Positions 9,655 to 15,125 of a stretch of DNA of 64,000 nucleotides are shown piece by piece. The notes under the pieces were generated by a model that was given only the letters and a program-made list of their open reading frames with translations, made no database searches and had not been told where the DNA came from. The position numbers and the translations under genes are program-made. The stretch covers positions 62,001-126,000 of the forward strand of contig MKTZ01000001.1 in the NCBI GenBank assembly GCA_001898505.1. The letters run 5' to 3'. The DNA comes from Sphingobacteriales bacterium 50-39 (lineage in GTDB: Bacteria; Bacteroidota; Bacteroidia; Chitinophagales; Chitinophagaceae). Every line of letters begins with the position of its first letter. Positions within the stretch are counted from its first letter, which is position 1.

Positions 9655-9688
9655 GCCCATTCTGAGAAATGCAGAATGGGCTTTTTTT
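9655..9688 (+). terminator. Strong terminator after the FAH-family gene
   Basis: GCCCATTCTG (9655-9664) pairs with CAGAATGGGC (9672-9681) over 7 bases, followed by seven T residues. Confidence 0.92.
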
Positions 9689-9692
9689 ATAC

Positions 9693-11759
9693 ATGATAAC
9701 TGTCGATATTCTTTCCAGGGCTTATGGTCTCATGTGCACGGCACGTGAGATGGCTACGACGTATGAGAACAACCGCGTCCTTTGCAAATATGTACATTCC
9801 ACTTCCAGGGGGCACGAGGCTATTCAGTTGGCTACGGCTTTTCACCTGCAGTCCTGTGACTGGATCAGCCCTTATTATCGCGACGAGAGTATATTGTTAG
9901 GTCTTGGGTTCGAGCCATACCAGCTGATGTTGCAGCTGCTGGCCAAGGGGGGCGATATATTTACCGGTGGGCGGGAATACTATGCTCATCCTAACTACCG
10001 GGAGAAGGACAAGCCGGGGATCATCCATCAAAGCAGCGCTACCGGTATGCAGGCCATTCCTACGACGGGGATTGCGCAGGGGCTGGCATATCTGGAAAAG
10101 ATCGGCTCTACGCTGTTGAGAAGAGGGGAGCATGGGGAGGCGCCCGTCGTCATCTGCAGCCTGGGTGACGCCAGCGTGACGGAAGGGGAGGTCAGCGAGG
10201 CTTTTCAATTTGCGGTGCTGAAAAAACTGCCGATCATCTACCTGGTGCAGGACAATGACTGGGGGATCAGCGTGCGGTCGGAAGAATCGAGGGCAATGGA
10301 TGCTTATGAATATGCGGCGGGTTTTTCAGGGATGGCGCGTATACGTATCGACGGTAGTGACTTCCAGGAAAGCTATGAAGCAATGGACCGGGTGATTGGG
10401 GAGGTAAGGAATGGCCGTTGTCCTTACCTGGTACAGGCAAAGGTTCCGTTGTTAGGGCATCATACCAGCGGGGTAAGGAAGGAGTTTTATCGTAGCGCGG
10501 AAGATCTGGAGGAGCATGCCCTTCAGGATCCATTGCCAAAGTTAAGGGCGCGGATGCTTGGATTGGGGATGGAGCCCGGCCGACTGCTGGCTATCGAGAA
10601 AGCGGCTGTCGCGCTGGTAGCGGAGCATTTCCGGGAGGCGGTAGCGGCGCCTGAGCCGGACCCGGCGACCGTGATGGATTTTGTCTTTGTTCCGACGCCT
10701 GTGAAGGAGGAAGAAGGGGAGCGGAGTCCGTCCAGGGGGGAGAAGGTCATCATGGTGGATGCCGCCTTGTTCGCCATCCGTGAGATCATGGAAGACTGTC
10801 CGGAGGCATTACTATATGGCCAGGATGTGGGGCGGCGGCTGGGTGGAGTATTCAGAGAGGCGGCCACGCTGGCGGAGCAGTTTGGGGATCATCGGGTCTT
10901 TAATACGGCCATACAGGAGGCCTATATCATCGGCTCGACGGTGGGGATGAGTGCGGTGGGGGCGAAGCCAATCGTTGAAGTTCAATTTGCAGACTATATC
11001 TATCCGGGGTTCAATCAACTGGTGACGGAAATATCGAAGTCCTGTTACCTCAGCGCCGGTAAATTCCCGGTGCAGACGTTGATCCGGGTACCTATCGGGG
11101 CCTATGGAGGGGGTGGGCCTTATCATAGCGGGAGTATCGAGACGACGCTGTTGTCTATCAAGGGCATAAAAGTGGTGTATCCTTCCAATGCAGCGGACAT
11201 GAAGGGTTTGATGAAGGCTGCGTTCCTGGATCCGAACCCTGTGATCATGTTGGAGCATAAGGGGCTGTATTGGAGCAAGGTGCCGGGGACGGAGGATGCC
11301 AAATGTGTGGAGCCTTCCAGGGACTATATACTACCGCTGGGGCGGGCGGGTATTGCCCTGACTGCGGATGGGGCGACTACCGGGAGAGGGGAGACCTGCT
11401 GTATCATTACCTATGGCATGGGGGTGTATTGGGCCAAGGCGGCGGCAAAGCATTTCCCGGGATGTGTGGAGGTGCTGGACCTGCGGACTTTGTATCCATT
11501 GGATGAGAAACTGATCTTTTCTACTGTCCGGCGGCATGGGAAGTGTCTGGTGCTGACGGAGGAACAACAGAATAATTCTTTTGCAGAGGCGCTGGCCTGG
11601 CGTATCTCGTCACATTGTTATGTGCATCTGGATGCGCCGGTGGAGGTGATGGGAGCCCTGGACCTGCCGGCGGTGCCCATGAATATGGGGCTGGAGAGCG
11701 CCATGCTGCCGAGTGCGGCCAAACTGGCCGAAAAAATCGAGAAGTTACTGGATTATTAA
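9693..11759 (+). CDS. Fused 2-oxoacid dehydrogenase E1 (alpha-beta) subunit
   Basis: This 688-residue protein fuses E1 alpha (about 1-330) and E1 beta (about 345-688) of a branched-chain 2-oxoacid or acetoin/pyruvate dehydrogenase type complex. The alpha part shows the thiamine-diphosphate motif beginning GDASVTEG and ending near DNDW. The beta part shows EVQFADYIYPGFNQL and YGGGGPYHSGS. Such fusions are common in Bacteroidota, usually for branched-chain 2-oxoacids. No E2 or E3 gene is adjacent. An ATG at 9669 sits in the loop of the upstream terminator, so the ATG at 9693 was chosen. Confidence 0.92.
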   Translation: MITVDILSRAYGLMCTAREMATTYENNRVLCKYVHSTSRGHEAIQLATAFHLQSCDWISPYYRDESILLGLGFEPYQLMLQLLAKGGDIFTGGREYYAHPNYREKDKPGIIHQSSATGMQAIPTTGIAQGLAYLEKIGSTLLRRGEHGEAPVVICSLGDASVTEGEVSEAFQFAVLKKLPIIYLVQDNDWGISVRSEESRAMDAYEYAAGFSGMARIRIDGSDFQESYEAMDRVIGEVRNGRCPYLVQAKVPLLGHHTSGVRKEFYRSAEDLEEHALQDPLPKLRARMLGLGMEPGRLLAIEKAAVALVAEHFREAVAAPEPDPATVMDFVFVPTPVKEEEGERSPSRGEKVIMVDAALFAIREIMEDCPEALLYGQDVGRRLGGVFREAATLAEQFGDHRVFNTAIQEAYIIGSTVGMSAVGAKPIVEVQFADYIYPGFNQLVTEISKSCYLSAGKFPVQTLIRVPIGAYGGGGPYHSGSIETTLLSIKGIKVVYPSNAADMKGLMKAAFLDPNPVIMLEHKGLYWSKVPGTEDAKCVEPSRDYILPLGRAGIALTADGATTGRGETCCIITYGMGVYWAKAAAKHFPGCVEVLDLRTLYPLDEKLIFSTVRRHGKCLVLTEEQQNNSFAEALAWRISSHCYVHLDAPVEVMGALDLPAVPMNMGLESAMLPSAAKLAEKIEKLLDY

Positions 11760-12100: not shown

Positions 12101-13531
12101 TTAATATTTTGTCAGCTCGGGCTGGACTTCGTCTATATAAGACAGTATGCCGCCCTTGAGGTTGTACAAATTGGTGAACCCGAATTTTTCTTCCAGCTCG
12201 CGGATGGCTTTTGCGCTTCTGCCTCCCATTTTGCAATGAACCACTACTTTTCTTTCGGTGTCGATCCTGCCGGCGTTGTCGCTGACGGTGGCAAGGGGAA
12301 TGAGTTCGCCGCCAATGTTGACGATGTCGTATTCGTGCGGTTCCCTGACATCGATGAGCTGGAATTTCTCCCCTTTGACCTGCCAGTCGTATAGCTCTTT
12401 TGCGGTGATCTCTTTCAGGGGTTTTTCTTCCACTGCCCGCATGCCGCAGAATTGTTCATAGTCGATGAGGGCTGTGATGGTGGGGTTCTTCCCGTTGATG
12501 GGGTTGTCTTCCCTTCTCTTGATATTAAAGGTCCTGTTCTCGAAGTTGAGGGCGTCAAAAATGTAAAATCTTCCGGAGAGGGTTTCTCCTACGCCTGTAA
12601 TGACCTTGATGACTTCGAGGGCCTGCAGGCTGCCGATGATACCGGGCAGGACGCCGAGGACGCCGCCTTCGGCGCAGCTGGGAACGAGTCCGGGAGGGGG
12701 AGGGGTGGGATAAAGGTCACGGTAGTTGGGGCCTGTATGACCCTTGCTGTCGGTGTAATTGAATACGGATACCTGTCCTTCGAACTGGAAGATGGATGCG
12801 TATACATTGGGTTTGCCCAGCAGGACAGCAGCGTCGTTGACGAGGTAGCGGGTGGGGAAATTGTCTGTCCCGTCCGCGATGACATCGTAATCCTTAAAGA
12901 TCTCGAGGGCGTTCGAAGAGTTGAGATGGGTATTGTAGAGATGCAGTTTTATATAAGGGTTGAGGGCTTCGAGCCTTCTTTTGGCAGCCTCTACCTTGGG
13001 CTTGCCGATCTCATCGATACCGAACACCACCTGCCGTTGGAGGTTGCTGTCATCCACGACGTCGAAGTCGACAATACCGATGGTGCCGACACCTGCGGCT
13101 GCCAGGTACAGGAGCACGGGGCTGCCGAGTCCACCGGAGCCAATGACGAGGACCTTTGACTTCTTCAGCTTTTGCTGGGCCTCCATACCAAAACCGGGGA
13201 TGATGATATGTCTGTTGTACCGGGCCAGCTCTTCTTTTGTAAAGAGGGGTTGGTCGGGACTGCCGCCGGCGATGGCGGGAACGATGCTGATGACGGTGTC
13301 GTCCTTTACGGCGGTGTGCTCCTGCTGGAGATCGCGGATATCGTTATTGCCTACAAAGATATTGACGTAGCTGCGGATGCCGCCACCTTCGTCGAGCAGA
13401 TGCTTTTTAAGATCGGGAAAATTCCGGGTCAGCTCATTAACGGTGTCCTGTATCGTACCGGCCTTGACTTCCAGTCTGGCGGTGTTATTGGTGAATTTCC
13501 TCAGCGGTGTGGGAATGATCACGGTTGCCAT
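12101..13531 (-). CDS. Sulfur carrier-E1-rhodanese fusion (CysO/MoaD-ThiF/MoeZ type)
   Basis: This 476-residue protein has three domains. Residues 1-90 form a ubiquitin-like MoaD/CysO sulfur carrier ending in PAIAGG (Gly89-Gly90). Residues about 95-345 are an E1-like adenylating domain with ATP loop GSGGLGS (131-137), DFDVVDDSNLQRQ and conserved Cys286 in SCAEGG. Residues about 375-476 are a rhodanese with active-site Cys433 in VHCKMGGRS. MoeZ of Mycobacterium combines the last two domains and activates CysO. Here the carrier itself is fused to the N-terminus. It lies 20 bases after the JAMM peptidase gene and in one operon with cysM, which points to thiocarboxylate-dependent cysteine synthesis. 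A role in molybdopterin or thiamine sulfur transfer is the alternative. Confidence 0.92.
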   Translation of the reverse strand: MATVIIPTPLRKFTNNTARLEVKAGTIQDTVNELTRNFPDLKKHLLDEGGGIRSYVNIFVGNNDIRDLQQEHTAVKDDTVISIVPAIAGGSPDQPLFTKEELARYNRHIIIPGFGMEAQQKLKKSKVLVIGSGGLGSPVLLYLAAAGVGTIGIVDFDVVDDSNLQRQVVFGIDEIGKPKVEAAKRRLEALNPYIKLHLYNTHLNSSNALEIFKDYDVIADGTDNFPTRYLVNDAAVLLGKPNVYASIFQFEGQVSVFNYTDSKGHTGPNYRDLYPTPPPPGLVPSCAEGGVLGVLPGIIGSLQALEVIKVITGVGETLSGRFYIFDALNFENRTFNIKRREDNPINGKNPTITALIDYEQFCGMRAVEEKPLKEITAKELYDWQVKGEKFQLIDVREPHEYDIVNIGGELIPLATVSDNAGRIDTERKVVVHCKMGGRSAKAIRELEEKFGFTNLYNLKGGILSYIDEVQPELTKY

Positions 13532-13551: not shown

Positions 13552-13980
13552 TTATGAGAATTGGTAATCTATTATTTTTTCTTCTTCGAACTGCTGGTTA
13601 TCGTTCAATACCCAGGAGCGCAGGGTGACGACTTCCTTTTCGAGCACGGACACGATGACATAAGAGAAAAAGGGCTGCGCCGCCACCCTATCATGCTCAG
13701 AAGGGATAGCGGGGTGATTGGGATGGGAATGATATATTCCCAATAAGGTCCAATCGTGGTCCAGGGCATGTTGCTCGGCTGTCATATAATCCAGCGGAGA
13801 GATCTCAAATCGTCTGCGTTTGTCTCCTTCTTTGGAATTGTCTACGGCCAGTATGTCGACAAGAATGCGTGTGCCGTCATGCTCTTCCCTGCCGAAGAGG
13901 AAGCCGCAGCATTCGTCGGGGAATGTGTTTATTGCATCCTCGATCATTAGCTGACGGACCCCGGGTTCGATGATGATCAT
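13552..13980 (-). CDS. JAMM/MPN+ metallopeptidase (Mec-like)
   Basis: This 142-residue protein is a stand-alone JAMM zinc peptidase. Glu23 (in PDECCGFL) and the motif HSHPNHPAIPSEHD give the full HxHx7SxxD ligand set (His84, His86, Ser94, Asp97). In Mycobacterium the homologue Mec removes cysteine from the CysO-Cys adduct. Its ATG overlaps the cysM stop (ATGA), so the two are translationally coupled. In this operon it could also cut after the internal Gly-Gly of the neighbouring fusion protein; that is inference. Confidence 0.92.
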   Translation of the reverse strand: MIIIEPGVRQLMIEDAINTFPDECCGFLFGREEHDGTRILVDILAVDNSKEGDKRRRFEISPLDYMTAEQHALDHDWTLLGIYHSHPNHPAIPSEHDRVAAQPFFSYVIVSVLEKEVVTLRSWVLNDNQQFEEEKIIDYQFS

Positions 13981-14921
13981 TGTTGTAAAAGTTTTTTGAT
14001 TATTTCACTGTATTTATCTGCGTTGTCGGGCAGCACGGTAACAAGGGTCCCTTCGTCCAGCTGTTGCGCGATGCGCAGGACGCCGGCGAGGTTGGCTGCG
14101 GAAGAGGGACTTAACAGGAGCCCTTCATATTTATAGGCTGCCTTGATCATGTCGTGCGCTTCTTCGGTGCTGACCTCATAATTCGCATCGGCAACGGTGG
14201 GATCATAGATCTTTGGCACGAGGGCTGTCTCCATATGCTTCCATCCTTCCAGACCGTGCAGGGCAAAGTCGGGCTGGAGAGATATGAGCTGAATGGAAGG
14301 TTTTAGCTCACGTAGCCGGCGGCCAGTGCCTACAAAAGTACCGGTAGTACCCAGACCTGCGACAAAATGGGTGATCCCGGGCAGGGCTCCATAAATTTCC
14401 GGGGCGGTGGTATGATAATGGGCTTTCCAGTTGTTCTGGTTCTTGTATTGATCAGCGTAATAATAGCTTTCAGGGTCTTCCTCCGCCAGGCTTTTGGCGA
14501 CCTGCTGGGCCCCATCGGTGCCCTCAAAGCGGGATGTGAGGATGAGGCGGACGCCCAGCGACTCGAGGATATCTTTCCTTTCCCTGGAGGCATTTTCGGG
14601 CAGGCAGAGGGCGACGGGGATGTCGAGCTCTTTGGCGATATGTGCATAGGCGATGCCTGTATTGCCGCTGGTGGCATCCAGAAGAGTGCGGCGCCGGGAA
14701 AGGTCGCCGTTTTCTATGGCCTTGCGGATGATATTGTAGGCGGCGCGGGCCTTGACGCTGCCGGACAGCTGCATCCATTCCTTCTTGGCATAGACGTGTA
14801 CGTTCTTTTTATTCAACAGACGGGTGACCCGGTGCAGCGGGGTATTCCCTATCTTTTTCTCCAATCCTTTTACGGAAGAGAGGAGGTCGTTATGGGCGAT
14901 AAGATCGGTTGTTGTTGACAT
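13977..14921 (-). CDS. cysM: PLP-dependent cysteine synthase (CysM type)
   Basis: This 314-residue fold-type-II PLP enzyme is related to CysM/CysK. The PLP lysine is Lys57 in LSGSVKAR, the phosphate-binding and substrate loop is DATSGNTGIAYA, and AGLGTTGTFVG is the glycine-rich PLP-phosphate loop. The C-terminus is rich in Lys/Leu and close to the family end. Adjacent JAMM and CysO-type genes suggest the CysM branch, which in Mycobacterium uses O-phosphoserine and a carrier thiocarboxylate; substrate choice here is inferred. It is the first gene of the operon, behind a leader with a Cys-rich peptide and terminator. Confidence 0.93.
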   Translation of the reverse strand: MSTTTDLIAHNDLLSSVKGLEKKIGNTPLHRVTRLLNKKNVHVYAKKEWMQLSGSVKARAAYNIIRKAIENGDLSRRRTLLDATSGNTGIAYAHIAKELDIPVALCLPENASRERKDILESLGVRLILTSRFEGTDGAQQVAKSLAEEDPESYYYADQYKNQNNWKAHYHTTAPEIYGALPGITHFVAGLGTTGTFVGTGRRLRELKPSIQLISLQPDFALHGLEGWKHMETALVPKIYDPTVADANYEVSTEEAHDMIKAAYKYEGLLLSPSSAANLAGVLRIAQQLDEGTLVTVLPDNADKYSEIIKKLLQQ

Positions 14922-14935
14922 ATGCTATAAATAAG

Positions 14936-14961
14936 AAAAGCTCCACTTGCGGTGGAGCTTT
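14936..14961 (-). terminator. Attenuator terminator in the cysM leader
   Basis: Read on the minus strand, AAAGCTCCAC (14961-14952) pairs perfectly with GTGGAGCTTT (14946-14937) over a 5-base loop. The run continues TTTTCTTATTT. It lies only 15 bases before the cysM ATG, so it is inside the leader rather than after a gene. The 5' arm can pair alternatively with the upstream segment at 15006-15012. Confidence 0.75.
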
Positions 14962-14990
14962 ATATGTTTGCTGAAAACAGTTTACTAAGC

Positions 14991-15077
14991 TTATAAGAGG
15001 TCATCCTCCACCAAAATAACCATGGCTTGCTTACAACAGCAACAACAACAAGCTATATTTGCAAATCCGTGGTTCAT
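14991..15077 (-). CDS. Poly-cysteine leader peptide of the cysM operon
   Basis: This 28-codon ORF begins MNHGFANIA and then has six consecutive Cys codons (residues 10-15; TGT TGT TGT TGC TGT TGT), followed by KQAMVILVEDDLL and TAA. It starts 16 bases after the -7 box of a promoter and ends 30 bases before the terminator hairpin. Coding GGTGGAG at its 3' end (15012-15006) is complementary to CTCCACC (14957-14951) in the terminator. Poly-Cys leader peptides controlling sulfur genes are known in mycobacteria; the position before a cysteine synthase operon makes a cysteine-sensing role likely here. Confidence 0.75.
   Translation of the reverse strand: MNHGFANIACCCCCCKQAMVILVEDDLL
15006..15012 (-). 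promoter_or_regulatory. Antiterminator segment
   Basis: GGTGGAG on the minus strand is exactly complementary to CTCCACC in the 5' arm and loop of the terminator at 14937-14961. A ribosome held on the Cys codons (15050-15033) would leave it free, and a ribosome finishing the leader would cover it. GAGG here can also pair with CCTC at 15000-14997. Confidence 0.6.
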
Positions 15078-15093
15078 GTGAATGATGAGAGCA

Positions 15094-15125
15094 TAAAAGT
15101 AGGGAATTTGCTGTTCCCCACCAAA
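15094..15125 (-). promoter_or_regulatory. Promoter of the cysM leader
   Basis: On the minus strand, TTTG (15125-15122), a spacer of exactly 20 bases and TACTTTTA (15101-15094) match the Bacteroidota promoter with one mismatch. The spacer carries an inverted repeat, GGGAA/TTCCC (15102-15106 and 15114-15118), a possible operator. Confidence 0.65.

Follow-up and report, generated by a model that had tools for sequence, protein, structure and literature searches.

The window, by which we mean the whole 64,000-nucleotide stretch of DNA analysed here, carries on its minus strand a cysM-like cysteine synthase gene and, behind it, genes for a JAMM protease-like protein and a ThiS-ThiF/MoeB-rhodanese fusion protein. 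A short leader frame with six consecutive cysteine codons precedes these genes, and rpiA lies on the opposite strand, directed away from the leader-cysM unit. The features of the locus are as follows.

15134-15129, minus strand: CTCTAC, one half, in variant form, of a motif that recurs in relatives as TAGTCTAC-N7-ATAGGAA and reads CTCTAC...GGTGGGGAA in the window; a possible regulator-binding site
15125-15122, minus strand: TTTG, a -33-like promoter box, read from the sequence
15101-15094, minus strand: TACTTTTA, a -7-like promoter box, read from the sequence by eye
15077 (ATG) to 14991 (end of TAA), minus strand: leader peptide frame of 28 codons, MNHGFANIACCCCCCKQAMVILVEDDLL, read from the sequence and with counterparts in relatives
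15050-15033, minus strand: six Cys codons TGT TGT TGT TGC TGT TGT, the proposed sensing site, read from the sequence
15021-14999, minus strand: hairpin GGUUAUUUU-GGUGG-AGGAUGACC, 9 bp with a GGUGG loop (-7.1 kcal/mol), a proposed protector
15012-15006, minus strand: GGTGGAG, the predicted antiterminator strand (duplex with 14957-14951, -14.2 kcal/mol; covariation)
14961-14937, minus strand: intrinsic-terminator-like hairpin AAAGCTCCAC-CGCAA-GTGGAGCTTT, 10 bp, followed by a T-rich tract (-14.2 kcal/mol, predicted)
14957-14951, minus strand: CTCCACC, a shared strand with two possible partners: GGTGGAG, or the 3' arm of the terminator, to whose 5' arm and loop it belongs
13977-14921, minus strand: cysM-like cysteine synthase of the PALP family, ATG at 14921, from profile search
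13552-13980, minus strand: JAMM/Prok-JAB protease-like protein, the second gene, from profile search
12101-13531, minus strand: ThiS-ThiF/MoeB-rhodanese fusion protein, the third gene, from profile search

The promoter boxes, the 28-codon frame, the six Cys codons, GGTGGAG, the hairpin and the cysM start codon had all been named in the original prediction, and each was found where it had been placed. The T-rich tail that it had also named is present, but the U tract behind the 10-bp stem is weak (TCTTATTTAT); the tail reads TTTTCTTATTT if the stem is taken as 8 bp. TTTG and TACTTTTA are separated by a 20-nt spacer and are promoter-like by the Bacteroidota -33/-7 consensus, and in several relatives TATATTTG or TACTTTTA was seen by eye just 5' of the leader ATG. 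Further downstream, 20 nt separate the last Cys codon from GGTGGAG and 39 nt separate the run from the start of the stop codon.

The best NCBIfam profile for the cysM-like gene was TIGR01138 cysM, at 275 bits and thus below the cut-off of 394. By their predicted products, the genes behind the leader (cysM-JAMM-ThiS/ThiF/rhodanese) fit cysteine synthesis. The ThiS-like carrier at the front of the fusion protein contains an internal GG (..AIAGGSPDQP..) and the JAMM protease gene adjoins; by inference, the protease might free the carrier. Elsewhere in the window, at 9669-11759 on the plus strand, a single protein matches both E1 alpha and E1 beta of pyruvate dehydrogenase-type complexes, in head-to-tail order.

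Poly-Cys leaders before cysM in related genomes

We drew 147 Chitinophagaceae genomes, 11 of which carried a close cysM (E <= 1e-60). A Cys-cluster short ORF, a G-rich GGTGG-like segment and a terminator-like hairpin were found at all ten of these loci with upstream DNA; L013, which has none, was excluded from the counts. In addition, named genomes were scanned by cysM alignment, and the best 80 of at least 581 loci were kept. In the resulting set of 90 loci (10 from the family and the best 80 of at least 581 named ones), 44 contained an ATG-started poly-Cys leader followed by an intrinsic terminator, 5 a leader without a terminator and 41 no leader under the ATG-only rule. Cys runs with no terminator under the rule were seen in L070, L079, L082, L090 and L105, and some of the 41 loci counted as having no leader do show Cys-rich frames under less strict criteria, without an in-frame ATG at L041, L059 and L075 and as a long frame at L066.

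According to the record titles, the positive loci among the best 80 of at least 581 named ones belong mainly to Chitinophagaceae, Saprospiraceae and unclassified Bacteroidetes/Bacteroidota. Culturable strains with a cysM leader of the window type include Flavitalea sp. BT771 (L034) and Pseudoflavitalea rhizosphaerae KACC 18655 (L040). One Flavobacteriales locus in this selection (L069) was positive, and others (e.g. L045, L052, L060, L061) were negative. Three positives stand under other titles: L096 (Acidobacteriota), L107 (Bacterium HR08) and L072 (Rhodopirellula, possibly a doubtful label). The leaders of L096 and L107 have three Cys residues, in the context CCCRR, and their antiterminator is unusually long (about 13-16 bp) and different in sequence; these two loci suggest that the predicted leader-terminator device reaches beyond Bacteroidota. 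The leader of L010 (L010:1355-1467) stops directly past four Cys codons and a Phe codon, unlike its relatives, with GGTGGGC and the terminator kept; this early stop is either a real variant or an assembly error of a draft genome.

A draw at the level of the order, which shares some organisms with the family and named draw, comprised 298 genomes, 65 of them with a cysM match at E <= 1e-60 (68 matches). We examined 66 loci, leaving out two at contig ends (G255:C337 and G287:C19), and set aside L149, L156 and L162 with less than 250 nt of upstream DNA, which left 63. A poly-Cys leader starting with ATG, GTG or TTG was present in 47 of the 63, and 45 of the 47 also had an intrinsic terminator; five of the 16 loci with no leader are distant matches at 40-41% (L199-L203). 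The Cys-cluster ORF before cysM is more than a product of chance: it occurred on the coding strand in 46/66 order-level loci vs 1/66 on the opposite strand, and in 0.3% of dinucleotide shuffles of the upstream stretches. The original prediction had proposed a comparison with other Chitinophagaceae; the leader-terminator unit is present there and is not confined to that family.

Two leader-terminator units in series were found at 8 of the 44 positive loci (L044, L047, L048, L050, L051, L063, L069 and L078; the named scan comprising the best 80 of at least 581). The run is limited to three Cys codons in the upstream unit of L044, in that of L063 and in each unit of L078.

Covariation and folding of the leader RNA

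The pairing segments change together between clades. Leaders of the Chitinophagaceae type carry GGTGG(A/G) and a terminator arm CTCCACC, and those of the Saprospiraceae type carry GGAAAGGC and the arm GCCTTTCC. Further combinations of leader and arm are GGAGGGC and GCCCTCC in L086, GGTGAGG and CCTCACC in L180 and L184, CGGGAAAGGC and GCCTTTCCCG in L050, and CTCTCCGGCGGTGG and CCACTGCCGGAGAG, with one G-U pair, in L096.

We reassigned terminator arms among leaders whose terminator starts no more than 120 nt past the last Cys codon; the first leader of L065 was excluded, its nearest terminator being 253 nt away. Over 52 leaders from 44 loci, the duplex of a leader with its own arm averaged -14.31 kcal/mol vs -10.37 kcal/mol (sd 0.36) after reassignment, and 0 of 10,000 reassignments were as low, a count that overstates independence because the loci are related. 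All but three of the leaders (49/52; the exceptions are L005, L008 and L010) beat the mean of the comparison arms, and 38/52 had a z below -2 against mononucleotide shuffles. A second set comprised 35 leaders that differ from one another within the 40 nt that follow the run; here the own arm gave -13.97 vs -9.30 (sd 0.40) for reassigned arms, again with 0 of 10,000 as low, and 33 of the 35 beat the mean of the others. The exceptions were L154 and the first L185 frame, which is probably not a true leader. Identical leader peptides are encoded by L007/L040, L011/L043 and L151/L152.

The change of core sequence between clades with complementarity kept is itself the evidence, and covariation is the decisive part of the case for an antiterminator. 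Conservation of the Cys run and covariation of the pairing had been proposed as a check of the original prediction; the run, the pairing and the spacing are kept in many relatives with diverse cores, and the prediction withstood this sequence half of the check. Pairing of the Cys codons with the A/C-rich stretch before the terminator (e.g. in L007) was also considered and was rejected, being no stronger than in dinucleotide shuffles (52 leaders, mean z -0.41).

In fold predictions for the window locus, the full RNA 3' of the Cys run folded into the GGUGG hairpin plus the terminator (-26.8), and the RNA cut at 14950, directly past the shared strand, paired GGUGG with CCACC in its best fold (-14.2). 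When the 3' arm of the terminator alone was blocked in the full-length RNA, the best fold (-14.6) was another structure without the GGUGG:CCACC pairing, and because the blocked full-length RNA prefers this other fold, the energies alone do not prove the antiterminator at the window locus. Overall fold stability was uninformative as a test of the element: the whole leader in the window was not unusual (z -1.76), and the related leader regions showed no unusual stability (mean z -0.20 over 52).

The 9-bp GGUGG hairpin at 15021-14999 is, in the folding model, a plausible third, protector-like element that was absent from the original list of parts. In a set of 18 Chitinophagaceae-type leaders, the two sequences flanking GGUGG are complementary to a degree matched by just 10 of 5,000 reassignments, and a hairpin of this kind is missing from the best fold of several relatives (e.g. 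L034, L035, L036, L046, L081). This flank pairing would also be expected if the hairpin were a ligand- or protein-binding RNA, riboswitch-like, with the poly-Cys ORF secondary. The covariance models of Rfam 15 gave no match in the window at gathering thresholds; Rfam holds described families only. Beyond the Chitinophagaceae-type leaders, however, another sequence stands in place of the hairpin, with the Cys run and the pairing of leader and terminator kept, and the weak mean fold z given above likewise argues against a binding RNA, which we consider very unlikely.

Ribosome position and the cysH leaders

The spacing from the run to the antiterminator strand and on to the terminator is steady across the leaders. 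Counted from the last Cys codon, the median positions are about +14 to +25 (pairing strand), about +34 (stop codon) and about +68 (start of the terminator). A halted ribosome reaches about 11-15 nt ahead of its A site, and with this reach a ribosome stalled at the Cys run in the window would leave GGTGGAG uncovered. With an assumed footprint, a ribosome at the stop codon overlaps the antiterminator strand by at least 3 nt in 36/52 leaders; in the remaining 16/52 the overlap is below 3 nt, so that either the passing ribosome or a protector hairpin would have to take over this role.

Unbroken runs of 4-8 Cys codons occur in 39 of 51 distinct leaders, and 34 of the 51 have at least one TGC within the last unbroken run. 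TGT and TGC vary between leaders, an interchange expected if the codons are there to code for Cys. In another reading the run is not a sensor: the short ORF would encode a small thiol- or metal-binding peptide, with the terminator serving as a constitutive brake. Cys-rich peptides could bind metals, and regulation of the operon by stalling at the Cys codons is itself a prediction. Against a functional peptide, clades differ in the residues on either side of the Cys run, and the run sits at a steady distance 5' of the antiterminator strand. Moreover, the GGTGG segment is read in different frames by different leaders (e.g. L005 and L011 vs L001), so it is the RNA and not the peptide that is kept there. 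A peptide of this kind thus seems to us exceedingly improbable.

The genome of the window (7.9 Mb) was scanned with the patterns TGY x5 and TGY x4 then TRR. One more convincing poly-Cys leader was found, before cysH-cysD (G000:C16:15192-16002; L032 at about 1344-2311; L114); it ends in ...NTCCCCC, with the stop codon directly after (L032/L114). Other poly-Cys patterns in this genome were rejected, as they overlap, on the same or the opposite strand, other frames of at least 100-150 codons (several Gln-rich) or, apart from the cysM and cysH leaders, have no 150-codon open frame within 400 nt downstream.

Within the family, a cysH leader was present at 29/88 loci vs 1/88 on the opposite strand, with none under the rule at 59/88. 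The last Cys codon lies 0-2 codons from the stop in 29/29 of these leaders, and a terminator-like hairpin between leader and cysH was found in 0/29 under the rule used for cysM. The first 40 nt past the stop have C 0.256, G 0.116 and T 0.391, with C > G in 28/29. Loci with no leader are an imperfect control, as coding DNA may fall within the 60 nt that precede their match start, and the comparison was therefore made with the cysM stretch from the stop codon to the terminator (n=50); it has C 0.143 and G 0.138, with C > G in 22/50.

These cysH leaders, with the Cys run near the stop, no terminator-like hairpin and a tail with C > G, bear on an alternative in which the cysM leader, too, acts on translation or via Rho: the poly-Cys ORF would set ribosome loading on cysM or the access of Rho, a mode of action put forward for poly-Cys leaders of actinobacteria and mycobacteria, and the hairpin would be incidental. 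The cysH leaders resemble those of Actinobacteria, for which the passages covered describe Cys-codon runs 5' of cys operons and cbs that have no conserved terminator hairpins, and where Rho was suggested (PMC1262725). In those passages the actinobacterial run likewise lies near the stop codon (PMC1262725). The cysH leaders fit this type, and the cysM leader, with its stop codon beginning 39 nt past the run and a predicted terminator, is further from it. An action via Rho or translation would leave unexplained why 45 of the 47 order-level cysM leaders have an intrinsic terminator at a steady distance with a covarying 5' arm, and the cysM stretch past the stop is not C-rich. We therefore regard this alternative as unlikely for the cysM leader.

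A candidate cysteine attenuator and its place among known leaders

Taken together, the locus has a short, putatively translated ORF in which codons for the amino acid made by the downstream operon form a run, a predicted intrinsic terminator between leader and cysM (its U tract weak in the window), and an antiterminator strand complementary to the 5' arm of the terminator and kept by covariation. All of these parts were read from the DNA itself, as were the order and distances in which they stand, their recurrence in relatives and the covariation. They suggest that the cysM leader works as a ribosome-mediated transcription attenuator and senses charged tRNA-Cys, a reading to which we assign a probability of about 0.88. 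Classical amino-acid attenuation was what the original prediction had proposed, and the conserved Cys run, the spacing and the covarying antiterminator-terminator pairing support it.

The dynamics, the cysteine response and termination itself are predicted to run as follows. With ample cysteine, the ribosome would pass the six Cys codons and run over GGUGGAG; with this strand covered, or refolded in its own hairpin, the CUCCACC arm would join its downstream partner and transcription would stop before cysM. With Cys-tRNA in short supply, the ribosome would halt within the Cys run, which ends 20 nt 5' of GGUGGAG, and the free GGUGGAG would catch the emerging CUCCACC, so that the terminator would be blocked and the cysM-JAMM-ThiS/ThiF operon transcribed. 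If the leader were not translated, the GGUGG hairpin and the terminator would form as the predicted default, the off state.

The mechanism itself is known. Enterobacterial trp and his attenuators combine a leader with control codons and mutually exclusive antiterminator and terminator structures; the cysM leader differs from them in amino acid, phylum and sequence, and its protector (1:2) helix is less clear. In mycobacteria, Canestrari et al. (2020) reportedly showed by experiment that poly-Cys leaderless short ORFs exert a cysteine-responsive control of downstream genes. Those ORFs and the cysM leader are alike in that a poly-Cys short ORF stands before regulated genes, as far as citing passages describe them; the mycobacterial ORFs are described there as leaderless and as acting by translation attenuation, and the citing passages mention no terminator/antiterminator pair.

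The uORFC-8-2 motif 5' of cysS in Rhodobacterales is a predicted cysteine transcription attenuator (PMC8632094) and, in the passages covered, shares with the cysM leader the predicted ribosome-mediated attenuation, the Cys codons and the intrinsic terminator. It is described with two tandem Cys codons, before cysS, in alphaproteobacteria, with one consensus fold (PMC8632094, in the part covered), whereas the cysM leaders have 4-8 unbroken Cys codons (39/51), come mostly from Bacteroidota and vary in pairing sequence by clade. The window leader, with its cysM-like gene and six Cys codons, is thus set apart from uORFC-8-2 by description. Within the same phylum, the transcriptome of Flavobacterium psychrophilum gave clues for leader-peptide attenuation before amino-acid operons, and the passages covered name no cysteine leader (PMC9723704). 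In the full-text literature searched, which most subscription papers lie outside and of which passages from PMC1262725, PMC8632094, PMC13236596, PMC9723704, PMC7366714, PMC4833913, PMC2965389, PMC9094748 and PMC9031893 were covered, no cysteine leader was found described in Bacteroidota, nor was a cysteine attenuator family before cysM.

Upstream of the leaders, the palindrome-like TAGTCTAC/GTAGACTA occurs in 6/18 cysM upstream regions (0.05 expected) and 16/88 cysH upstream regions (0.6 expected). It was located before cysM leaders at L006:2661-2668, L007:2696-2703, L008:1202-1209, L037:2735-2742 and L039:2711-2718, and before cysH at L115:1350-1357 and L143:1323-1330; the window carries no more than the CTCTAC variant (15134-15129), which was not clearly enriched before cysH (10/88 vs 5.25 expected). 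The palindrome is perhaps a shared transcription-factor site. More tentatively, at somewhat less than even odds, these elements may form a Bacteroidota cysteine regulon read by ribosome stalling, with two builds per cell (the cysM attenuator, in some cases doubled, and the stop-adjacent cysH-cysD leader) and a transcription factor acting at the shared motif. Within this joint reading, the cysH build probably works via Rho or coupling.

The cysM leader offers a testable cysteine sensor in a phylum for which the literature searched yielded no description of a cysteine leader. It suggests that short Cys-rich ORFs before sulfur genes serve regulation and are not genes for small proteins. Serial doubling, and the use of two builds for the same amino acid within a single genome, would serve as natural experiments on attenuator tuning and on the pace at which pairing sequences can diverge under a constant mechanism.
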